64,000 bases of DNA from Capnocytophaga bilenii (GTDB lineage Bacteria; Bacteroidota; Bacteroidia; Flavobacteriales; Flavobacteriaceae). The translations under genes were made by a program, and so were the position numbers. Location of the stretch: positions 124,001 through 188,000 of the forward strand of contig NZ_JAGDYP010000002.1 in NCBI RefSeq assembly GCF_017565765.1. The letters are read 5' to 3'. The notes beneath the pieces were generated by a model, which saw nothing but the letters and a program-made list of their open reading frames with translations, did no database searches and was not told the DNA's origin. Below, piece by piece: positions 3,041-61,311 of the stretch (position 1 is its first letter; each line of letters opens with the position of its first letter).

Positions 3041-6000
3041 CTATTGCTTTACCGATGAGTTAGTTTTGGCTGTTTCGGCTTTTATGGCAGCCAATTCTTT
3101 TTTAGCTTCAGCTACTATTTCGGGCATATCTTTAAAGCTTTTTGCTACGCTTTCAAGTACATAAGTAGCCTGATAGCTGTCTTTTTGCCCATAAAAGTTC
3201 TTAGCCATCACGATAAGGCTTTTGGCAGCGTATTCTTTTTGTGCCCCATAGTCTTTAGCAATTCGTTGCACTACTTCGTTAGAGGCTTTGTAATCTTTAT
3301 CTTTATTTTTGTAATAAGCATCGTAATACAAGGCTTCTGCAGCCACGTTCTTGTTTTCGGTGCCTGTTTTTTCCACCTCTTTGTAGTATTTACGAGCCTG
3401 AGCATCATCGCCTTTTTTGAAGTAAGTACGAGCCAATACCACATAAGCATCAGCCTTTACGCGCTCATCTATTTGCTTGTCGGCTAATACCTTGTTGGCA
3501 TATTCGTTAGCCTTGTCATATAGATTTTCGTTATAGCACACACGCATTAGGTTACTGCGAGCAAAGGTGCGGTTTTGGCTGATAGTCGCTCTTTTTTCAA
3601 GCTCTTCCAAGTAAGGTTTAGCCTTTAGGTAGCTGCCGGCATCTAATAGTATTTGGCACACGCGCACCAATGATTGTTCGCTGAAGTCGTTAGAACTACT
3701 CTTGTACACTTTCTCAAAATAAGTGAGAGCGTTGGCTTTGTTACCCTTGTTGAAGTACGATTGCGCCAAGTAAAATTCGGCATTGGTACGTCTCATTCCG
3801 TTAGGGTACTGTTTGATGTATTTTTCAAAACCAGCAATAGCCTCATCTAAGTTGTTTTGCAAATATTGTCGTTCTGCCGATTCGTAAGTGGCTGCTTCAA
3901 GTTCCAAATTGGTAACCTCTACATAGCCCAAGCTCTTTGCCCAAGCGGCATATTCATTCACCTGACCCATATCTACATAAATCATCTTTGCCGAAGCCAC
4001 CGCCTGCGAAGCCTCATTTGTATTGGGGTAATCTTTAGCAATTGTTTTGAATAGTTGTAAGGCTTTTTGCTCTTCACCTCTGCTATAGTACACCAATCCT
4101 TGTCGTAATAGCACACGAGGCACTAATACATTTCCTTTGTAGTTTGTAGAAAGCTGCTCGTAATATTCCATACCTTTGGACATATTTCCTTGCGTTACGT
4201 AGGTACTACCCAATTCGTATAGCGCATTGGGGCGCAAGTTTGAGTCGGGGTAGTTTTTTATAAACTTTTCCAACTCCTCAATTTTGTTATTAGCACGGTC
4301 TACAAAACCATAGCTAATAGCCTTTTGGTATGCAGCGTAATCCTGATTCTCGGTTTTTGCTTCTATCAGTTTGTTGTAGCCCTCCATTGCAGGCCAGTAC
4401 TTACCGGTTACAAAATACGAATCTGCCAATCGCAACATTGCATCTTGTTTCCAAGCCTCATCTTTAGGGCTTTGTTTCAAATAATTTTCAAAGTTTGTGA
4501 TAGCATTAGCGTATTGGTGTTGGTTGAAATAGCTATAAGCCAAGCTGTAATACACCTTGCTGTATTCATCAGTTTTTGTTGCCGAAGGATTTGCTAAGAA
4601 TTTGTCGAAGAATGTTGTAGCTTTGCTGAAGTTTTTTAGCTGATAAGCACTTTCACCAGCCCAGTAAGCCGCACGAGCCGAGATAGTGCTGTTATCGGTA
4701 ATAGCACGTTCCAAATACTTAAGAGCTTCGGTGTATTGCTGATCGTTGAACAGTTCCGCACCCCTGTAGAAAGCTACTTTTTTGTAAAGCTCCTTATCCT
4801 TTGCATCGGTTGATTTTTCTAATATACTTATTGCAGCCTCATAGTTGCCCGATGAGATATACGAATCTACTAGTAGCGATTGTATTTCTTCCTTGTTGTC
4901 TTTAGGATAAGCTTTGGCATAGCCCATTAGTACCGAAGGCACTGCTTCATAAGCATTTCCTATTTCATAGCTCAAGCGAGCGTAGTTTAGGTAAGCATCT
5001 TTTTTTATTTGCTCGTCAAAAGCCATTTGCGAAGCATTTCTAAAAGCGTTTAGAGCCTCTTGCTTTTTATTGGTTTTTAGGTAGCATTCTGCCAAGTGGT
5101 AGTAAGCATTTTGGGCTACTTCATCATTCCCGTCTATAATCTTGTTAAATTGCGAGATAGCTCCCTCGTAATCGTTGTTTTTGTAGAACGCATACCCCAT
5201 ATAATAATAGTCGGTATTAGAAAGTTTCCCTTTTTTGCCTTTGTACAACATCAGGTGAGGCAAAGCCTCTTGGTATTTTTTAAGGTTGAAGTAACTTTCA
5301 CCCACAATTTTGTGCAGTTCCGAAATTTCTTGTGCATTTTTTGTTTTGGCGAGTTGTTTTTCGCCTTCCTCAATAGCGTCATCGTACAACGCCTGACTGA
5401 AGTACATATTTGCCTGAAAATAGCTCACATTCTTATCACTATCGTTAGCACTTAGTTCGCCAAATAGCTTTTCAGCTTTTTGGTAGTCATCGGCATCGTA
5501 AGCCATATAGCCCAAGTAGTATTTAGCATCGTTGCCGTAAGTGCTACTGTTTTGCACCGCCTCAAAGTGTGAGCGCGATTCGCTTTGTTTGTCCAATGTA
5601 AAAAGAGCATATCCCTTTTGGAAGTTTAATTTTTCTTTTTCGGCACTATTTAGCCTGAGTGGGTCTACAGAGGCATACCATTCTAAGGCTTCTGTATAAT
5701 TTCCTTGTTCGTAATAAAGGTTTGCCATTTGCAAATAAGCATCGGCACTTAGTGGCGACTCGGGGTGGCTTGTAATAAACTTATTTACCAAAGTTTCAGC
5801 CCCCTTTTGTCCCAAAATAGCAGCGATTGTAGCCACATAATATTCACTTTGAGTGCGTATCGTTTTATCAGAACCATTGTTCATCGTTTCCCTAAAGATA
5901 AGCTGAGCAGGCTGATAAAGCTTTCGCACAGATAGTCCCAACCCTTTTTGATACCGTTGTTGTGCATTGGTATCGCTTGAGGTTTCTTGTGCTATCAAAG

Positions 6001-7649: not shown

Positions 7650-7793
7650 ATGAAATTAAACGCAGGTATTATCACCGAGAAATTAGCTGAGAGCAAGGAT
7701 TTCTAATAAGAGCCTTGGGGCGACCGCCATTTTGCCATTGTAGATCCTAACGGCATCGATATAGATATCGTAACCTATTCCGCCCCTGAGTAA
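7650..7793 (+). pseudogene. VOC/glyoxalase-family protein remnant with a large internal deletion
   Basis: The frame reads MKLNAGIITEKLAESKDF, then two stop codons (TAA TAA), then 'EPWGDRHFAIVDPNGIDIDIVTYSAPE' and a final stop, all in one frame. The first part is a typical N-terminal strand and helix of a VOC (glyoxalase/bleomycin resistance) protein. The last part is the characteristic C-terminal 'WGxRxFxxxDPNGxxIDxV' strand set. Roughly 70-80 residues that an intact protein of this family would have between them are missing. Start codon, stop codon, promoter and terminator are all kept. Confidence 0.8.
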
Positions 7794-8328: not shown

Positions 8329-9419
8329 TATAGTCAAAAAGAAATGGTTTGCGAATTTATCAAACGGAAATTGAGAGTTAGAAGTGACTCTAACTCCTTT
8401 TTATAAGTATGTATATTATCAAAGAAATTCCTTATAGCATCTCGGAATTCTGTCTTGTTCCGATAGAAACCCGTATTGATTACTTTTTTTCGTAAGAATT
8501 TCCACAAGTGCTCTATTAAATTGAGGTTCGGAGAGTATGGAGGCAAGAAAATTTGCTTGATTCTATTATCTTCTACCCAGTTTTGAAGCTCTTTATTGTG
8601 ATAATAGCGAGCATTATCGGATATAATATAAATATTTTTAGCGTTTGGATGCTTTTTAAGAGCTAATTCGTAAAGTTCTTTTGTTGATTCTGCATTAACG
8701 CATTCACAATCAAGAGCTATTACATCTGTAACATCATAAGCATTAAGCAAACCATTGATATTCACTCTATCACGTCCACTAACTGTTGGTTGTTGAAACT
8801 CTTTACCTTTCTCTATCCAAGCATAAGTGGAACGGCTGTTGTGCGTAGGATGAACACCATCGGCAAAATACACCACATCCCCTTCTTCCTTTTCTTGAAG
8901 AATTTTAGAGAGCGCTTCAGCAAATAGTTTTTGTTTTAAAGGATCCGCCTCACAAGGCACTTCGGTTGTTTTCTTGTAGGAAAAACCAATTCTGTTAAGT
9001 AAATCAGCCATTCCTTGTGGAGTATAGGTAACTTCAAAAGTGTCTTTAACCCATTGAGATACTTGTTTTGCATCTGTATAAAGATGTGTGCGTAACTCTT
9101 GTTTTAAGGATTCTATTTGAAAAATATTAAGCAGACCTTGATAACCTTTATAACGATTCTCAAGAAGTTTATCTAGTCCTCCTTCAAGATATAAGGAACG
9201 ATAACGATAAGTAGTAGAAATATCTATACCCAAGCAATCAGCAACAAAAATAGGAGTATTGCCCATAGAAAGCATCAAAATGCAGGTAACTCGGGCATAA
9301 TCCAGCGACCTTGCAAGTTGCGTTGGAGCTTTCTAAGTTCCTCTATTTCTGTTGGTGATAATGTTAGTTCCATAGACAGTGCAAAGATAATAAATCTTTT
9401 ATTTATTCGCAATCTAAAT
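8329..9419 (-). mobile_element. IS630-family insertion sequence, copy A (right end missing)
   Basis: The left end is TATAGTCAAA; the transposase stop codon lies inside this terminal repeat. At the other end the sequence follows the MITE end up to about CGCAATCTAAAT and then switches to the cargo DNA instead of continuing to TTTGACTATA. The transposase promoter motif (minus strand TATCTTTG at 9382-9389) is kept. Confidence 0.8.
8334..9373 (-). pseudogene. IS630-family transposase with a 1-nt frameshift near its N-terminus
   Basis: The intended start is ATG 9371-9373 (MELTLSPTEIEELRKL). Compared with the other copies, one G is missing at about 9304 (ATCCAGCG versus ATCCGAGCG), which breaks the frame after about 23 codons. 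From 9278 to the stop the frame is open for 314 residues. All catalytic DDE parts are present: 'VVYFADGVHPTHN', 'IYIISDNARYYHN' and 'FLPPYSPNLNLIEHLWKFLRKK'. The intact length would be 346 residues. The product is probably inactive unless an internal start at 9278 or ribosomal slippage is used. Confidence 0.85.
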
Positions 9420-9485
9420 ATATTCCAATGTAGGGATTAGTGATCGTTTTTGCTTTTGCCGAAAAAGCAGAAACATACAGTAGCT

Positions 9486-9764
9486 TTAAAGTGAAGTAAT
9501 AAAAGTTAAGAATCCTAAAACTACCCCTACCAAATTGGGGATAATGAGAATATAATCTGGCTTAGGCTCTTTTGTCCAGCCATACACCACCCAGATAAGA
9601 CAAGACCCAGCTGCAAACAAAGGTTGCCAAGGTTGTGCTTTGTGCCCCTCTAAGTTGGCCATAATTTGAGGAATATAGGCTACAAATACAGCCACTCCTA
9701 TAAAGGCTCCTATGGAACCTATAAGCAAATTAATTTTTTGCTTGATATTTCTTTTTTCGTTCAT
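9486..9764 (-). CDS. SemiSWEET sugar transporter, mobile copy 1
   Basis: 92 residues with three transmembrane helices (about residues 11-31, 45-62 and 70-90) and the PQ-loop signature 'AYIPQI' (P32, Q33) in helix 1. SemiSWEETs are half-size homologues of eukaryotic SWEETs; they work as dimers and move sugars passively across the inner membrane. Spliced between IS630 sequences, this copy encodes exactly the same protein as the copies at 18060 and 18789. It has a consensus promoter at 9782-9812 and is probably expressed. It differs from the resident gene at 33929, which shares only the family core. Confidence 0.85.
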   Translation of the reverse strand: MNEKRNIKQKINLLIGSIGAFIGVAVFVAYIPQIMANLEGHKAQPWQPLFAAGSCLIWVVYGWTKEPKPDYILIIPNLVGVVLGFLTFITSL

Positions 9765-9781
9765 AATAATATGGTTTTCTG

Positions 9782-9812
9782 CAAAGATAGTAATAATTTG
9801 CGATTTTACAAA
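9782..9812 (-). promoter_or_regulatory. Consensus promoter of SemiSWEET copy 1
   Basis: On the minus strand: TTTG (9809-9812), a 19-nt spacer, TATCTTTG (9782-9789), then the ATG 17 nt further. The same sites recur upstream of copies 2 (18356-18386) and 3 (19085-19115). Confidence 0.75.
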
Positions 9813-9866
9813 GAAACTTCAAAAATAATTAGAAACATTTTTATTTTACACTCTGCGTAACGAAGC

Positions 9867-9935
9867 CTATAATCTCCGAATATAAGGGTCTTCCACTACA
9901 TCAATAATAGCTAAAATATCAGCTGGAATACGCAT
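9867..9935 (-). other. Short ORF remnant upstream of SemiSWEET copy 1
   Basis: Reads MRIPADILAIIDVVEDPYIR plus two more residues, then TAG. The frame continues open upstream for about 12 more codons to the MITE boundary, so it looks like the C-terminal end of a larger gene cut off by the MITE. In the other two copies the TAG is CAG and the peptide runs seven residues further to a TAA. No family is recognised. Confidence 0.4.
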
Positions 9936-9972
9936 TGATGAGTGAGTAATATTAAGCTTTTTTGTCAATTTC

Positions 9973-10162
9973 TATAGTCAAAAAGAAATGGTTTGCGAAT
10001 TTATCAAAATGCAGGTAACTCGGGCATAATCCGAGCGACCTTGCAAGTTGCGTTGGAGCTTTCTAAGTTCCTCTATTTCTGTTGGTGATAATGTTAGTTC
10101 CATAGACAGTGCAAAGATAATAAATCTTTTATTTATTCGCAATCTAAATTTGTTTGACTATA
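9973..10162 (-). mobile_element. IS630-derived MITE, copy 1 (both ends intact)
   Basis: 190 bp from TATAGTCAAA to TTTGACTATA. It equals the two ends of the IS630 element with the interior removed. The deletion ends fall in the 6-bp repeat ATCAAA, present at both sites in the full element. The deletion is in frame: the minus strand (10103 to 9978) encodes a 41-residue peptide made of the first 33 transposase residues joined to its last 8 (INSQTISF). Confidence 0.85.
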
Positions 10163-10238
10163 ATTCGGTTGCTTTTGCCCATAAAGTGATGAGCATTGTT
10201 TCAGGTATTTTGTTCATAAAGCTTACGAATTAGAATCA

Positions 10239-14934: not shown

Positions 14935-14940
14935 CCATTA

Positions 14941-14971
14941 AAAAAGCCACAGCTTTAGGCTATGGCTTTTT
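14941..14971 (+). terminator. Intrinsic terminator after the AraC gene
   Basis: Arms AAAAAGCCACAGC / GCTATGGCTTTTT (one mismatch) with a 5-nt loop. The A and T runs on either side mean it can work in both directions, which suits the convergent gene at 15000. Confidence 0.8.
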
Positions 14972-14999
14972 CGTTCTTAGTTAGTGAAATAATAATAAT

Positions 15000-15257
15000 T
15001 TACTTGTCAATCGACCCTACTACGCGCTTCATAAAGCTGTTTAGGGCTTCTTTCTGCGGAGTGCCGGCTTTTATCATATTATCCACCTCAATGGCTCCGT
15101 AGAAATTAGAGAGCAATTCACCTATTACGTCAAGCTCCTCATCTTTGAGTTGCTCACATTCTATGAGATTTTCGAGAGTCTCTACCGTCTCATTCACATA
15201 ATCCTGATCGTTGGTTTCAATAAACTGAACGATGTGTTTAATTACCGGTAATCTCAT
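15000..15257 (-). CDS. Small conserved protein of the redox operon (DUF6952-like)
   Basis: 85 residues, acidic and helical, with no cysteines and no signal peptide. It overlaps the thioredoxin gene upstream by 20 nt, showing tight coupling. I believe this matches the short flavobacterial family found behind a thioredoxin-like gene, but I cannot confirm the family number. Function unknown; a role as a partner of the thioredoxin is inferred from context. Confidence 0.65.
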   Translation of the reverse strand: MRLPVIKHIVQFIETNDQDYVNETVETLENLIECEQLKDEELDVIGELLSNFYGAIEVDNMIKAGTPQKEALNSFMKRVVGSIDK

Positions 15258-15549
15258 CTATAAATTGCTTTAATATTTCGGCTTTATTAGTTTGCACTTG
15301 GTTTACCAAAGCACCATTTTTGAAAGCCGCAAAAGTAGGTAGGTTATCCACTTTAGCCAGTTTGCGCGATTCTGTAAACGCCTCAGCATCTACATATACG
15401 AAAGTAGCATTAGCGGTTTCGCTAGCGTACTTTTTAAACTTTGGTTTCATTATTTTGCAATTGCCGCACCATCCAGCGCCAAATTGTACGAATACAAGCG
15501 GATTAGCAGCTACTACTTCTTGCAAGTTATCTTGGGTTAGTTCTGTCAT
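15238..15549 (-). CDS. Thioredoxin-family protein with CGNC active site
   Basis: 103 residues with a single thioredoxin fold and no signal peptide, so cytoplasmic. The active site is 'GWCGNC' (C28, C31) in place of the usual WCGPC. The cis-proline is in 'VDNLPTFAAF'. It lies 84 nt downstream of the 2-Cys peroxiredoxin and is a likely reductant for it. The altered CxxC dipeptide should change its redox potential compared with standard thioredoxin. Confidence 0.85.
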   Translation of the reverse strand: MTELTQDNLQEVVAANPLVFVQFGAGWCGNCKIMKPKFKKYASETANATFVYVDAEAFTESRKLAKVDNLPTFAAFKNGALVNQVQTNKAEILKQFIDEITGN

Positions 15550-15633
15550 ACTGATAAATTTTAATTGAGTGAGTCTTTTAGTCAGTGCAAATAGATAGGT
15601 TTACAATGATTAAGTTATTATGAAAAATTATAA

Positions 15634-16269
15634 TTAGTGCGATGCTAAATAGCTAGCAACTCCTTTGCGGTCAGCATTCATGGCATCTTTACCTTCTTCC
15701 CAGTTAGCAGGGCATACTTCACCGTGTTGTTGTACGTGGGTGTAAGCATCTACTAATCTAAGGTATTCTTTTACGTTACGTCCTAGAGGCATATCGTTGA
15801 TGCTTTCGTGGAATACTTTACCAGTTTCGTCTATGAGGTAAGTAGCGCGGAAAGTAACATCATCACCTTCTAAAAGGTAAGCGTCAGCTACTTCGTCATA
15901 TACCTCGTTAGAGTCAAGGATACCAAGTGTACGAGCAAGGTTGCGGTTGCTATCAGCCAAGATAGGGTAAGTAACACCCTCAATACCACCATTGTTTTTA
16001 GGGGTATTTAGCCAAGCGAAGTGTACTTCAGCAGTATCGCAAGAAGCGCCGATAACCTTCACGTTGCGTTTTTCAAATTCAGCCAAAGCCTCTTGAAAAG
16101 CGTGTAGCTCAGTAGGGCATACGAAAGTAAAGTCTTTAGGATACCAGAAAAGGAGTACTTTCTTTTTATTGTTTACGGCTTCGTTAAGCACGTTTATTTT
16201 GAATGTGTCCCCAAGGTCGCTCATAGCGTTAACCTCAATGTTAGGGAATTTTTTTCCTACGAATGACAT
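15634..16269 (-). CDS. Typical 2-Cys peroxiredoxin (AhpC/Prx1 group)
   Basis: 211 residues. The peroxidatic cysteine is C51 in 'FTFVCPTE' and the resolving cysteine C186 in 'EVCPANW'. It reduces hydrogen peroxide and organic peroxides in the cytoplasm and is recycled by a thioredoxin or AhpF-like protein; the thioredoxin gene lies immediately downstream. A TAATTTTG -7 element lies 35 nt upstream. No ahpF is seen here. It could be named ahpC, but the C-terminal region is also close to thioredoxin-dependent Prx1 proteins. Confidence 0.9.
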   Translation of the reverse strand: MSFVGKKFPNIEVNAMSDLGDTFKINVLNEAVNNKKKVLLFWYPKDFTFVCPTELHAFQEALAEFEKRNVKVIGASCDTAEVHFAWLNTPKNNGGIEGVTYPILADSNRNLARTLGILDSNEVYDEVADAYLLEGDDVTFRATYLIDETGKVFHESINDMPLGRNVKEYLRLVDAYTHVQQHGEVCPANWEEGKDAMNADRKGVASYLASH

Positions 16270-16303
16270 ATTTATGATGTTTTATGGTTTATTTTTCTGG
16301 CGG

Positions 16304-16311
16304 CAAAATTA
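16304..16311 (-). promoter_or_regulatory. -7 element of the peroxiredoxin operon
   Basis: Minus strand TAATTTTG (TAnnTTTG), 35 nt before the ATG. No OxyR-like site was recognised by eye. Confidence 0.45.
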
Positions 16312-16374
16312 CTATCATTTTTTATTGAAGAAATAGTTTTCTAATTGAAAGAATTTATAAAGCAATAAGTTTAA

Positions 16375-17559
16375 TACATGACAAAAAACAATATAGAAGG
16401 TACTTGACAAAAGAGCTGAAATTCTTTATATTAGAGTTTCTAATCTACCACAATTATGACTCTAAAAAAGAATATCAGCTCAGGAGACAAAAGTACAAAT
16501 TTATTATCTATATTCCAAGGGTATTTTTCCGGCAAATTTAATTTAGCAAGAATTAAATTTATATGCTTGTTAATCAGTTCTTTATGCAAAGTAAAGACTG
16601 TCAATTTTCAAAAGTTATCAATAGGATTTGATAATAAAGCAGCTACCTCAAGTAATTATAGACGGATTCAACGTTTTCTTGCAGATGTAATCCTACCTAT
16701 GAGATGGATAGCTCAACTTATTTTTAGTTTATTACCTGAGAAAAATAACTTGATATTAGTAATGGATAGGACTAATTGGAAGTTAGGAGGGAAAGATATC
16801 AATATCTTAATGTTAGGGATAAGTTATAAAAATATTGCTTTTCCATTAATGTTCAAGATGTTAGATAAGAGAGGTAACTCCAATACAGCAGAAAGGATTG
16901 CCTTAATAAATGATTTCATAAGTTGGTTCGGTTCCGATTGTATTGATTGTTTGTTAGCAGATAGAGAATTTGTAGGGAAGGAGTGGATTGCTTTCTTAAA
17001 TGACAATGGGATAGCTTATCACATTAGGATAAGAGAGAATTTCATGGTTTTTGACCCTAAGAAGCAAGTATTATCCAAAGCATGGCATTATTTCAACAAT
17101 CTAAAGATTGGAGAGATAAGACATTTCCATAGAATAATGGTAATTAATGATGAATATTGTTATCTTTCAGGAATGAAAACAATAAAAGACAATAAAATAG
17201 AGTTTTGTATTGTCATTTCTTTCAATAAACCTGAAGAATCTTTAGAAAAATATGCAAAGAGATGGCAAATAGAAACACTATTCAAAGCTTTTAAGAGCAG
17301 TGGTTTTAATCTCGAAGATACCCATGTAACGCAGATGGATAGAATAAAGAAATTAGTTTTATTGGTAATGCTTGCTTTTGTTTGGTGTTATAAGATAGGT
17401 GATTATATTGATACAAACATAAAGGCTATTAGAATAATAAAACACGGCAGTAGAGCCATAAGTATCTTTAAATACGGCTTGGATTACCTATCAAGGATAT
17501 TAATTTCAGGAATTAACTGTCTTAAAATCAATGTTTATCAATTTTTGTCGTGTAGTTAG
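16375..17559 (+). mobile_element. IS4-family insertion sequence interrupting an IS630 copy
   Basis: Probable ends are TACATGACAAAAA (16375-16387) and its near inverted copy TTTTTGTCGTGTA (17542-17554), 12 of 13 matching. On the right the element runs directly into IS630 transposase sequence at 17560. On the left the flank is ordinary DNA upstream of the peroxiredoxin gene, with no IS630 sequence, so the other half of the IS630 copy has been lost. No target duplication can be identified. The exact outer few bases are uncertain. Confidence 0.7.
16456..17559 (+). CDS. IS4-family transposase
   Basis: 367 residues, apparently intact. The DDE residues are in 'VMDRTNWKLG', 'CLLADREFVGKEW' and 'YAKRWQIETLFKAFKSSGF'. 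The last contains the Y-x2-R-x3-E-x6-K signature of the IS4 family. The N-terminal 100 residues include the usual helical DNA-binding region ('NYRRIQRFLADVILP'). Composition is more AT-rich than the neighbours. The stop codon lies in the last bases of the element. Confidence 0.9.
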   Translation: MTLKKNISSGDKSTNLLSIFQGYFSGKFNLARIKFICLLISSLCKVKTVNFQKLSIGFDNKAATSSNYRRIQRFLADVILPMRWIAQLIFSLLPEKNNLILVMDRTNWKLGGKDINILMLGISYKNIAFPLMFKMLDKRGNSNTAERIALINDFISWFGSDCIDCLLADREFVGKEWIAFLNDNGIAYHIRIRENFMVFDPKKQVLSKAWHYFNNLKIGEIRHFHRIMVINDEYCYLSGMKTIKDNKIEFCIVISFNKPEESLEKYAKRWQIETLFKAFKSSGFNLEDTHVTQMDRIKKLVLLVMLAFVWCYKIGDYIDTNIKAIRIIKHGSRAISIFKYGLDYLSRILISGINCLKINVYQFLSCS

Positions 17560-17948
17560 CCAATTCTGTTAAGTAAATCAGCCATTCCTTGTGGAGTATA
17601 GGTAACTTCAAAAGTGTCTTTAACCCATTGAGATACTTGTTTTGCATCTGTATAAAGATGTGTGCGTAACTCTTGTTTTAAGGATTCTATTTGAAAAATA
17701 TTAAGCAGACCTTGATAACCTTTATAACGATTCTCAAGAAGTTTATCTAGTCCTCCTTCAAGATATAAGGAACGATAACGATAAGTAGTAGAAATATCTA
17801 TACCCAAGCAATCAGCAACAAAAATAGGAGTATTGCCCATAGAAAGCATCAAAATGCAGGTAACTCGGGCATAATCCGAGCGACCTTGCAAGTTGCGTTG
17901 GAGCTTTCTAAGTTCCTCTATTTCTGTTGGTGATAATGTTAGTTCCAT
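17560..17948 (-). pseudogene. IS630 transposase fragment (N-terminal 129 residues), copy B
   Basis: Starts at ATG 17946-17948 and is open without the frameshift of copy A. It is cut after 'GMADLLNRIG' by the IS4 element. The HTH region is present but the whole DDE catalytic domain is missing. The N-terminal part is almost identical to copy A. Confidence 0.85.
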
Positions 17949-18059
17949 AGATGGTGCAAAAATAACAAATTTTTTATTTATTCGCAATCTAAATATATTC
18001 CAATGTAGGGATTAGTGATCGTTTTTGCTTTTGCCGAAAAGCAGAAACATACAGTAGCT

Positions 18060-18338
18060 TTAAAGTGAAGTAATAAAAGTTAAGAATCCTAAAACTACCC
18101 CTACCAAATTGGGGATAATGAGAATATAATCTGGCTTAGGCTCTTTTGTCCAGCCATACACCACCCAGATAAGACAAGACCCAGCTGCAAACAAAGGTTG
18201 CCAAGGTTGTGCTTTGTGCCCCTCTAAGTTGGCCATAATTTGAGGAATATAGGCTACAAATACCGCCACTCCTATAAAGGCTCCTATGGAACCTATAAGC
18301 AAATTAATTTTTTGCTTGATATTTCTTTTTTCGTTCAT
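18060..18338 (-). CDS. SemiSWEET sugar transporter, mobile copy 2
   Basis: Same 92-residue protein as the copy at 9486, with one silent base change seen (ACA versus ACC around the 9690 position). Promoter TTTG-N19-TATCTTTG at 18356-18386. It is the first of two tandem copies and reads toward the truncated IS630 transposase. Confidence 0.85.
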   Translation of the reverse strand: MNEKRNIKQKINLLIGSIGAFIGVAVFVAYIPQIMANLEGHKAQPWQPLFAAGSCLIWVVYGWTKEPKPDYILIIPNLVGVVLGFLTFITSL

Positions 18339-18419
18339 AATAATATGGTTTTCTGCAAAGATAGTAATAATTTGCGATTTTACAAAGAAACTTCAAAAAT
18401 AATTAGAAACATTTTTATT

Positions 18420-18509
18420 TTACACTCTGCGTAACGAAGCCTGTAATCTCCGAATATAAGGGTCTTCCACTACATCAATAATAGCTAAAATATCAGCTGG
18501 AATACGCAT
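18420..18509 (-). other. Short ORF remnant upstream of SemiSWEET copy 2
   Basis: 29 codons from ATG to TAA, identical to copy 1 but with CAG where copy 1 has the TAG stop, ending in QASLRRV. The frame is open further upstream to the MITE edge, again suggesting the tail of a lost gene. Confidence 0.4.
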
Positions 18510-18546
18510 TGATGAGTGAGTAATATTAAGCTTTTTTGTCAATTTC

Positions 18547-18723
18547 TATAGTCAAAAAGAAATGGTTTGCGAATTTATCAAAATGCAGGTAACTCGGGCA
18601 TAATCCGAGCGACCTTGCAAGTTGCGTTGGAGCTTTCTAAGTTCCTCTATTTCTGTTGGTGATAATGTTAGTTCCATAGATGGTGCAAAAATAACAAATT
18701 TTTTATTTATTCGCAATCTAAAT
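18547..18723 (-). mobile_element. IS630-derived MITE, copy 2 (right end replaced by cargo)
   Basis: Left end TATAGTCAAA and the ATCAAA deletion joint as in MITE 1. After about CGCAATCTAAAT it passes into the next cargo unit instead of its own right end. It also encodes the 41-residue fused peptide (18677 to 18552). Confidence 0.8.
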
Positions 18724-18788
18724 ATATTCCAATGTAGGGATTAGTGATCGTTTTTGCTTTTGCCGAAAAGCAGAAACATACAGTAGCT

Positions 18789-19067
18789 TTAAAGTGAAGT
18801 AATAAAAGTTAAGAATCCTAAAACTACCCCTACCAAATTGGGGATAATGAGAATATAATCTGGCTTAGGCTCTTTTGTCCAGCCATACACCACCCAGATA
18901 AGACAAGACCCAGCTGCAAACAAAGGTTGCCAAGGTTGTGCTTTGTGCCCCTCTAAGTTGGCCATAATTTGAGGAATATAGGCTACAAATACCGCCACTC
19001 CTATAAAGGCTCCTATGGAACCTATAAGCAAATTAATTTTTTGCTTGATATTTCTTTTTTCGTTCAT
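18789..19067 (-). CDS. SemiSWEET sugar transporter, mobile copy 3
   Basis: Identical in nucleotide sequence to copy 2 as far as I can read, shifted by 729 bp. Promoter at 19085-19115. With copies 1 and 2 and the resident gene at 33929, the window holds four SemiSWEET genes. Confidence 0.85.
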   Translation of the reverse strand: MNEKRNIKQKINLLIGSIGAFIGVAVFVAYIPQIMANLEGHKAQPWQPLFAAGSCLIWVVYGWTKEPKPDYILIIPNLVGVVLGFLTFITSL

Positions 19068-19148
19068 AATAATATGGTTTTCTGCAAAGATAGTAATAAT
19101 TTGCGATTTTACAAAGAAACTTCAAAAATAATTAGAAACATTTTTATT

Positions 19149-19238
19149 TTACACTCTGCGTAACGAAGCCTGTAATCTCCGAATATAAGGGTCTTCCACT
19201 ACATCAATAATAGCTAAAATATCAGCTGGAATACGCAT
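19149..19238 (-). other. Short ORF remnant upstream of SemiSWEET copy 3
   Basis: Same 29-codon frame as at 18420-18509, part of the tandem 729-bp unit. Confidence 0.4.
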
Positions 19239-19275
19239 TGATGAGTGAGTAATATTAAGCTTTTTTGTCAATTTC

Positions 19276-19464
19276 TATAGTCAAAAAGAAATGGTTTGCG
19301 AATTTATCAAAATGCAGGTAACTCGGGCATAATCCGAGCGACCTTGCAAGTTGCGTTGGAGCTTTCTAAGTTCCTCTATTTCTGTTGGTGATAATGTTAG
19401 TTCCATAGATGGTGCAAAAATAACAAATTTTTATTTATTCGCAATCTAAATTTGTTTGACTATA
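19276..19464 (-). mobile_element. IS630-derived MITE, copy 3 (both ends intact)
   Basis: 189 bp from TATAGTCAAA to TTTGACTATA; it forms the right boundary of locus 2, just as MITE 1 does for locus 1. One T shorter than MITE 2 in a T run. The DNA beyond 19464 is unrelated to that beyond 10162. Confidence 0.85.
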
Positions 19465-19544
19465 AAAAACAATCATCAAACAACAATATAAGAAAAACAA
19501 CAATTTTATCACCCCCCCAATTCAAAATTCAAAATTCCACCATA

Positions 19545-19676
19545 CCTTCAGCGAAGGTTGAGCGAAGGTTGAGCGAAGGTTGAGCGAAGGATAAGCGAAG
19601 AATAAAAGCCTGTGCGGCTCGCACCGAGCTGGCGCAGCCGAGTATGTGACGAAGGATGAGCGAAGGATAAGCGAAA
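19545..19676. repeat. 11-nt GCGAAGG-type tandem repeat with GC-rich hairpin, array 1
   Basis: Four to five tandem copies of an 11-nt word close to GAGCGAAGGTT, then AAAAGCCTGTGCGGCTCGCACC. The latter folds as GTGCG-GCT-CGCAC. A few more GCGAAGGAT words follow. The period is not a multiple of three and there is no open frame across it. Arrays with the same two parts lie at 32095-32214 and 49204-49271. The rest of the 295-nt gap from 19465 to 19759 holds only short AT-rich repeats (variants of AATTCAAAATTC) and the promoter at 19723. Confidence 0.8.
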
Positions 19677-19722
19677 AAAATCAAAATTCATAATTCAAAA
19701 TTCATAATTCAAAAATATTTTG

Positions 19723-33928: not shown

Positions 33929-34192
33929 ATGGAAAACAACAAATTTTTTACAGTACTAAGTTATGCAGCTGCCATTATGGCGGTAGGGATGTATGTATCA
34001 TACATACCCCAAATTGCTGATAACCTTGCAGGACACAAAGGCAACCCCATACAGCCTTTGGTAGCAGCTATCAACTGCACCCTATGGATTGCTTACGGCT
34101 TGCTGAAAAAGCCCAAACGTGATATGCCTATAATATTTGCTAATGCACCAGGTATCATTTTTGGACTTATAGCATTCCTAACAGCGTTATAG
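33929..34192 (+). CDS. SemiSWEET sugar transporter (resident copy)
   Basis: 87 residues, three transmembrane helices, PQ-loop motif 'SYIPQI' (P27, Q28) and 'WIAYGLLKKPKRD' at the second-third helix loop. It shares the family core (YIPQI.ANL.GHK...QPL.A) with the three mobile copies but differs at many positions, so the mobile gene is not a recent copy of this one. It lies 50 nt after the Rrf2 gene and may be in its operon. An IS1182-related MITE begins 9 nt after the stop. Confidence 0.85.
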   Translation: MENNKFFTVLSYAAAIMAVGMYVSYIPQIADNLAGHKGNPIQPLVAAINCTLWIAYGLLKKPKRDMPIIFANAPGIIFGLIAFLTAL

Positions 34193-60009: not shown

Positions 60010-61311
60010 TTAAGGTTTATTTATGAAATTTTTTACACCACCTTTTATTTTTATAGGGGTTGCTTTTCTATTTATTTCGTAATCAGTGATTCGGGAGCTG
60101 CGCAGGTAAAGTTCTCTGTCTTTTATTTCTGCCTCTATTCTTGCTGAGGGTCGTCTTCTTCGGAATAAATAATATGGGTAACCTGTATTGAAATATCCTT
60201 GAAAAGTGAGCCTTTCCTCCCCGCGTAATACTGTAATTTCTGTAGGGTCGCCTGCTCGCTTTTTGCTCGTGTACATCATAGGGATAAATGGCGAACTAAC
60301 GCTGTCTTTTTCCAAAGCTATCACTATATCACCTTCTTTTACGCCAAGCCGCTTAGCGGTAACAGTGTCATTCTTAAAGCCAGCAACTTTCAGTCCGTTG
60401 CCTTTGTAGTTATAGTCAAATTTTAATCCCAAATCGGCTTTGTTGTTGTAGATTTTTACTCGCTGCTGTGGCTTGTGCCATTCGGCTTTTGCGCTTGTGG
60501 TATCTATCGCTTTTACCCTTAGCCAACCGATGCCCTTAGGATTTTGATAATCAGAAGTTTCCCATACAATGCGCATAAGCGGTTTTCGTGTATGGCTGCC
60601 GATAAATTGCAATAAATTATCCTCTTCAGTATCAAAATAGCCCATAAAGTGGTCGCCAGCGAGGCTGCGAAAAGTAATATTAGGGTTTTCTGTCTTCAAA
60701 AAGTCAATAGTAGGTGTAATTTGTTCTATGGGATACAGCGTATCGCTATAGGTATTTACGATGTAGAAAGGCTTTTCGTTGGTATTACAAGGGTAAATTT
60801 CGTCTTCGCCCAGCATACTTGCTACTTTTATACTGCCATTTAGGGCGATAAATCCTGCAAAATCGGTAGGATAAGTCATAGAGAAATAGTAAACTCCCGA
60901 TGCTCCGTCCGAAAAACCTGCCAAAAACACTTTGTTTTCGTCAATTTTATACTGTTTCTTTACAGCTGCAATTTCGTCTAATACCATTTGGCAGCCTATT
61001 TCGTCAAACCAAGTGCAGCCTTTTTGCCCAAACGGAAAGAGCAAATAATAATCTCCTCTGTCGGCTAAGCCAACAAAAGGCGATTGCTCTACGTATTTTT
61101 CAGGATTCGGACGAATAGCTGGCGAACCAATTGCCCCGTGCAAAAATACTACCAAAGGCTTGCCGCCTTTTTTTGCTGATGTAGCTTCTTTAGGAGCGTA
61201 CACCACATAAGGACGTGTTTTCCCGTCCGCGCACGTTTGTTCGTAGGTCTTGAAATTTTGCGCCTGACCTACCAAGCCGCATACCAAGAATAAAAATCTA
61301 AAGTATTTCAT
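60010..61311 (-). CDS. Secreted alpha/beta-hydrolase (esterase-like) with C-terminal PDZ-like domain
   Basis: 433 residues with a signal peptide (MKYFRFLFLVCGLVGQAQ). The hydrolase core runs about residues 25-235: 'PLVVFLHGAIGS' (oxyanion region), nucleophile 'LAGFSDGASG' (G-x-S-x-G) and a late 'AGDHFMGYF' histidine, as in PHB-depolymerase/feruloyl-esterase-like proteins. The second half contains a PDZ-like stretch 'AKRLGVKEGDIVIALEKDSVSS' and a basic tail. It may cleave an ester in a polysaccharide or lipid outside the cytoplasm. The PDZ-hydrolase fusion is unusual. Confidence 0.75.
   Translation of the reverse strand: MKYFRFLFLVCGLVGQAQNFKTYEQTCADGKTRPYVVYAPKEATSAKKGGKPLVVFLHGAIGSPAIRPNPEKYVEQSPFVGLADRGDYYLLFPFGQKGCTWFDEIGCQMVLDEIAAVKKQYKIDENKVFLAGFSDGASGVYYFSMTYPTDFAGFIALNGSIKVASMLGEDEIYPCNTNEKPFYIVNTYSDTLYPIEQITPTIDFLKTENPNITFRSLAGDHFMGYFDTEEDNLLQFIGSHTRKPLMRIVWETSDYQNPKGIGWLRVKAIDTTSAKAEWHKPQQRVKIYNNKADLGLKFDYNYKGNGLKVAGFKNDTVTAKRLGVKEGDIVIALEKDSVSSPFIPMMYTSKKRAGDPTEITVLRGEERLTFQGYFNTGYPYYLFRRRRPSARIEAEIKDRELYLRSSRITDYEINRKATPIKIKGGVKNFINKP

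Follow-up and report, generated by a model that had tools for sequence, protein, structure and literature searches.

In the genome of Capnocytophaga bilenii a gene for a SemiSWEET sugar transporter lies between IS630 sequences, and it has to be asked whether this gene travels with them or is a resident beside which they landed. The first-pass annotation of the 64,000-nucleotide stretch analysed here (the window) had proposed that it is the cargo of an IS630 unit with IS630 ends as boundaries. The features of this unit (copy A) and of a second, rearranged occurrence (copy B, window 17560-19464) are collected in Table 1.

Table 1. Positions of features of copy A and copy B in the window.
Feature	Position	Strand	Remark
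Composite transposon, copy A	8329..10162		1834 bp counting TA at each end
Copy A left arm, IS630 copy	8329..9419	-	outer end intact, inner (right) end 10 bp short
IS630 transposase, longest open frame, 314 aa	8334..9278	-	frameshift near 5' end
Cargo segment between IS630 arms	9420..9972		homologous to IS630-free L042, L044, L026 and IS1595-flanked L176, L174
SemiSWEET sugar-transporter gene, 92 aa	9486..9764	-	PF03083 MtN3_slv
Promoter-like TTTG-N19-TANNTTTG upstream of SemiSWEET	9782..9812	-	consensus match
Chromosomal gene 3' fragment within cargo	9844..9950	-	86-88% to L022, L027, L032, L033
Copy A right arm, internally deleted IS630	9973..10162	-	36 bp left end joined to right-end segment
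Gene 5' fragment cut by copy A right end	10163..10217	-	267-aa ORF in L202
IS4-family transposase ORF adjoining copy B	16456..17559	+	NF033591 246.3 bits, cut-off 152
Copy B, remnant of IS630 left arm	17560..17994	-	outer end lost
Copy B, first SemiSWEET gene	18060..18338	-	
Copy B, first deleted IS630 arm	18547..18723	-	joined directly to second cargo copy
Copy B, second SemiSWEET gene	18789..19067	-	tandem 729-bp unit
Copy B, terminal deleted IS630 arm	19276..19464	-	right end complete
23 bp in common with chromosomal flank of C. leadbetteri insertion	19465..19487		

Both proposed boundaries were present: TATAGTCAAA occupies 8329-8338 and its reverse complement terminates at 10162. The window contained seven exact copies of TATAGTCAAA, against 0.19 expected from shuffles. 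The transposase of the left arm matched the IS630 model of NCBIfam (NF033545) with 182.7 bits (cut-off 100), and a profile search found DDE_3 and HTH_33 domains in it. As had been noticed before, this arm lacks its own right end where the cargo begins: compared with intact right ends in the genus it is 10 bp short and has thereby lost most of the terminal inverted repeat, and its truncation point (9419) coincides exactly with the cargo start. The outer right end had been ascribed to a MITE. The end is there, but it belongs to an IS630 copy reduced to 190 bp by one internal deletion, with both ends present. A dispersed MITE family was rejected, since among the matches listed the contiguous deleted form was found only beside the cargo, in two of the 20 genus genomes (three places in the source genome G000, one of them without the right tip, and one place in the C. 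leadbetteri genome G008). Keeping both ends, this arm could in principle also move alone. The two arms are in the same orientation; they share 36 bp on the left (100% identity) and 147 bp on the right (99.3%). Judged from this layout, copy A is a composite transposon, in which two IS630 copies surround a passenger gene and the outer ends form the bounding pair.

The seventh exact TATAGTCAAA, at 60411-60420, has no recognisable IS630 sequence around it and is probably a chance occurrence. We rejected it as a functional IS630 end, because IS630 matches of the own genome skip this place and its surroundings show no arm.

The passenger encodes a single-domain protein which matched PF03083 (MtN3_slv) with 31.4 bits (cut-off 23.7); neither a PDB chain (by phmmer) nor an NCBIfam model was found for it at E<=0.001. 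The earlier statement that the gene has its own promoter agrees with the promoter-like match at 9812-9782, TTTG-N19-TANNTTTG being what we take as the Bacteroidota promoter consensus. The genome encodes three identical SemiSWEET proteins and one 43% identical paralogue, the latter at window 33950-34189 on the + strand. PMC5972207 describes SemiSWEETs as transporters of sugars, with few of them tested. The effect of the cargo gene would most likely be extra uptake of mono- or disaccharides.

The cargo also includes a piece of another chromosomal gene, the 3' end of a 175/197-aa ORF in L022 and L033. At its right end copy A cuts a gene whose 267-aa homologue in L202 we take to be methyltransferase-like. 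A full homologue of the cut gene was found on contig 14, and the rest of the cut gene is absent next to the left end, which points to a deletion or rearrangement at the copy A site. The neighbourhood on the left looks decayed, with what seems from our reading of the sequence to be a glyoxalase/VOC-like gene remnant at 7655-7793.

The entire 1834-bp unit was found at a second site, an esterase site in C. leadbetteri DSM 22902 (L043/L177; G008 contig 1; L177 4357/6191), with 99.2% identity and with outer ends exact at both sites. The first 1048 bases are identical between the two units, including the frameshift lesion of the transposase. Comparison of the copy A flanks with the 16-kb C. leadbetteri locus gave a sole match of 72 bp (76%), between TonB-receptor genes. 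The equivalent of the C. leadbetteri site in another genome of the genus, G013, is empty: the left flank matches with 85% over 558 bp and is followed by one TA, beyond which 43 bp match the C. leadbetteri right flank with 77% (a short match). The C. leadbetteri unit has TA on both sides, against this single TA in G013. Insertions with TA duplications and empty sites in related strains had been named as support for a mobile unit; an empty site was found in G013 for the C. leadbetteri insertion, but for copy A an empty site was looked for and none was found. Taken together, the 1048 identical bases, the shared lesion and the single-TA empty site favour insertion of the C. leadbetteri unit as a whole with TA target duplication. 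The gene and its IS630 arms appear to have reached new places in the chromosome together. Full composites were present in only two of the 20 genus genomes, G000 and G008.

We consider it probable that copy A is a natural IS630 composite transposon which moved as a unit into new TA sites; this is the best explanation of the data. Two IS630 copies of the same orientation would have inserted at TAs to the left and right of a SemiSWEET gene in the chromosome. Later, most of the interior of one copy and the inner end of the other would have disappeared, and the two remaining outer ends would thereby have become the pair bounding the whole unit. IS630 transposase acting on these outer ends could then have moved the 1.8-kb unit, with the transporter and its own promoter, to new TA sites. 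The transposase would have been supplied in trans, the resident gene being frameshifted; we infer this supply as well as the order of events.

The frameshift is found in both composites, copy A and C. leadbetteri, so the moved unit was probably already without an intact transposase and in need of supply in trans. Mobility would need a transposase from elsewhere, unless the 314-aa frame with its internal start is enough. Plain IS630 has multiplied within the genus: six copies in G013 have intact 346-aa frames, the same ends and TA on both sides. Among the matches listed, no other full-length IS630 was found in G000 or G008, and with the frameshift the composite may therefore be immobile at present. 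Elsewhere in G000 (L178; contig 11, 6.5-14.5 kb) a 79-bp IS1595-type end occurs three times around an IS630 right-end fragment; this looks like another IS-built patchwork.

The composite at the new site could also have arisen without transposition of the whole unit, if a plain IS630 already present there was converted by homologous recombination with incoming DNA, with crossovers within the IS630 arms. The outer ends of the unit are identical to plain IS630 ends, the transposase is frameshifted, and copy B retains 23 bp of donor flank as a sign of transfer by recombination. Also, both arms of copy A carry base differences from the arms of copy B and of C. leadbetteri, and such differences common to both arms fit recombination between arms. 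However, 1048 identical bases with a shared lesion would require near-total replacement of the resident copy, and the related G013 site is empty, without IS630. We regard this conversion as unlikely, and transposition as a unit as the preferred reading.

The SemiSWEET gene was also found without IS630. In oral taxon 863 (L042) a homologue of the cargo, 93.8% identical over window 9416-9974, lies in a locus without IS630 match; this locus has a TA exactly at the right-arm start and one more at the left junction. The gene before SemiSWEET in L042 is presumably polysaccharide-flippase-like, by our reading of the sequence. C. leadbetteri (L044) and G013 (L026) have the gene next to a closely similar sequence on the left, without any IS630 match, and their homology to the cargo ends at 9794. 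One 32-bp repeat (94%) lies across the SemiSWEET gene in L044. IS630-free loci in three Capnocytophaga genomes mean that the gene was captured and that its bracketing by IS630 is secondary.

The same IS630-free loci would be expected if SemiSWEET were resident and IS630 elements merely landed beside it, with no mobile unit. Against this, the composite lies at sites unrelated to the IS630-free loci, G013 has an empty site, and at two further places the gene has IS1595-type pieces on both sides, with 8-bp duplications; we hold such a resident gene to be extremely improbable. It had been stated that a gene always found at one conserved location would not be cargo. SemiSWEET was found at several unrelated places, and a fixed resident gene was rejected on this ground and on the empty site in G013. 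The cargo reading is upheld by the unit at two sites with unrelated flanks, one of them with an empty site, and by the gene elsewhere without IS630.

The first-pass annotation had also reported that cargo and right arm recur at 17.9-19.5 kb with unrelated outer flanks. Cargo and deleted arm do recur there, but copy B is truncated on the left at 17560 and tandemly doubled, consisting of two tandem 729-bp units of cargo and deleted IS with the same arm/cargo junction in both. Because its arms are direct repeats, the unit can undergo unequal crossing-over, and this accounts for the doubling. The IS4-family element on the left is probably linked to the truncation. The right flank is not wholly unrelated, since it begins with 23 bp that are also found beside the insertion in C. 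leadbetteri. It means that copy B did not come from clean transposition, and an independent TA insertion was rejected because this piece of flank is kept at the right. Copy B most likely derives from the C. leadbetteri insertion, relocated with some of its flank. In C. leadbetteri the peroxiredoxin region near copy B (window 14937-16372) has a 97.8% identical counterpart, and the similarity ends before the IS4 ORF.

Copy B and its tandem repeats might be assembly artefacts, as 729-bp repeats are hard to assemble from short reads and the assembly has 20 contigs. But comparison of arm and cargo gave nine differences between copies A and B, and the flanks of copy B are its own; this makes an artefact highly unlikely, and the finding on copy A is independent of copy B. 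To the right of copy B, window 19550-19680 contains short repeats of GGTTGAGCGAA type; short matches similar to them occur in C. leadbetteri at L037 and near the peroxiredoxin gene of that genome (L227).

A second type of vehicle was found for nearly the same gene. In C. gingivalis (L045/L176, with flanks as in G006) SemiSWEET lies between direct IS1595-type repeats (129 bp at 95%, 164 bp at 78%), with an 8-bp target duplication AAAACTTT at 3298 and 4693. In G013 (L174) two 356-bp IS1595-type repeats in direct orientation (95.8%) enclose it, with an 8-bp target duplication TACTTTTA at 3435 and 4570. The chance of a match of random 8-mer pairs in these loci is about 4e-5. IS1595 was assigned from a truncated ORF in L176 that scores just below the curated cut-offs (NF033547, 68 bits, cut-off 75; PF12760, 24.2, cut-off 25.4), and no transposase ORF of at least 50 aa was found in the arms of L174. 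IS1595-family elements with passenger genes are known, and the C. gingivalis and G013 loci are like them in carrying SemiSWEET between IS1595-type pieces with 8-bp duplications. This family is separate from IS630. The IS630 and IS1595-type copies would represent parallel captures of nearly the same gene by separate families.

In G013 the IS1595-type composite lies between two GH32 genes (L174 1217-8491, with L239 and L240; contig 1, about 769-786 kb). The order is TonB-dependent receptor (SusC-like), SusD, DUF4960, GH32, [SemiSWEET], GH32, MFS, PfkB kinase and hybrid two-component regulator. The genes of this SusC-like/SusD locus are all on one strand, and co-transcription of the GH32-SemiSWEET-GH32 part is possible. 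The first GH32 has a BT1760-like C-terminal domain, and we take the polysaccharide locus to be levan-type from what is known of BT1760.

Between species the gene is highly similar. The 279-bp CDS of copy A differs by three bases from the IS630-free copy of C. leadbetteri, four from that of C. gingivalis, six from the IS1595-type copy of G013, seven from that of oral taxon 863 and 26 from that of C. periodontitidis (L046). For the IS1595-bracketed genes in two genomes, 97.8-98.9% of CDS bases are identical. The IS-free G013 copy was left out of this CDS comparison; it is 99.6% identical over 278 bp to the IS630-free copy of C. leadbetteri. As a host gene we compared the peroxiredoxin gene of the window, a single gene with possible paralogues: identity was 71% in G006 (C. 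gingivalis), 74% in G012 (oral taxon 863), 79% in G013 and 99% in G008 (C. leadbetteri). The longest matches of the copy A right flank in G006, G007, G010, G011, G012 and G018 were 68-71% identical. We infer transfer between species by DNA uptake. A plasmid vehicle was rejected, as megablast gave no match in 72,556 plasmid records. A viral vehicle was also set aside; a single viral contig was found with a related protein, 72% identical.

Cargo DNA matched at E<=0.001 in half of the genus genomes (10 of 20): over more than 250 bp in eight (G000, G006-G010, G012 and G013) and only in shorter pieces in G015 and G018. In the family sample 19 of 149 genomes had a cargo match, long only in its two Capnocytophaga genomes (G000 and G009). 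In the class-level sample five of 295 genomes, own included, had any SemiSWEET match, and the best outside the own genome (by E-value) was 37%. Peptide patterns found 110 protein relatives, of which 80 were compared. Five were from Capnocytophaga and 75, by title, from other phyla, with 70-80% identity; the latter include Streptococcus, Selenomonas, Actinomyces, Gemella, TM7/Saccharibacteria and Leptotrichia.

Composite (compound) transposons such as Tn9 have arms in direct orientation. Our unit resembles them in its passenger between two IS copies, in having kept its outer ends but lost an inner one, and in its apparently whole insertion. It is unlike the Tn9 type in having IS630 arms with TA target, one arm which is a 190-bp deletion derivative, and a sugar facilitator as cargo. 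The annotation had expected a new kind of composite element, but the architecture is ordinary and IS630-associated ones are already in print. An IS630-associated composite transposon stands in the title of Tenzen and Ohtsubo 1991 (a reference in PMC2170065). By this title it is like ours in IS630-type ends and TA target. Ours is a natural unit of the chromosome and has SemiSWEET as its cargo. PMC9977792 states that IS630 occurs in composite transposons and names genes of catabolism and of antibiotic resistance as cargo that composite transposons can have; according to PMC3606827 its IS630-family element may form composite transposons. Among the papers listed on SemiSWEET in transposons, in Capnocytophaga or in horizontal transfer, and on Capnocytophaga with IS630 or composite transposons, none dealt with this arrangement. 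The metabolic cargo and the capture by two IS families look new.

We suggest only tentatively, as a possibility somewhat short of even, that SemiSWEET is a roaming oral sugar-uptake module: captured separately by IS630 and by IS1595-type elements, tandem-amplified, passed between species at about 98-99% identity and, in one genome, placed in line between two GH32 genes of a presumably levan-type locus. If true, this would point to selection on the gene itself rather than to simple hitch-hiking. Two different IS families within one genus carry nearly the same gene, which encodes a sugar facilitator on its own. It thus becomes testable whether selection for so small a transporter is strong enough in the mouth for insertion sequences to spread it. 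The finding also bears on the published view, as given in PMC5972207, that transfer of SemiSWEET genes between phyla is rare, whereas 75 of the 80 relatives compared here are from other phyla by title. The same paper describes a Capnocytophaga SemiSWEET with sugar-synthesis genes upstream of it, e.g. one for a polysaccharide biosynthesis protein; the L042 gene is similarly placed with regard to its preceding gene, as read from sequence.

Repeats in the flanks were found at 15 of 104 SemiSWEET gene places (14 loci; Capnocytophaga included, some places counted twice). In Parvimonas micra, Granulicatella elegans and Streptococcus parasanguinis (L063, L065 and L084; about 7.3-8.8 kb) the gene lies between direct repeats of 178-313 bp with 91-95% identity. 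A viral contig of IMG/VR (L207, 17.5 kb) encodes at 5001-5282 a SemiSWEET 72% identical to the cargo protein.
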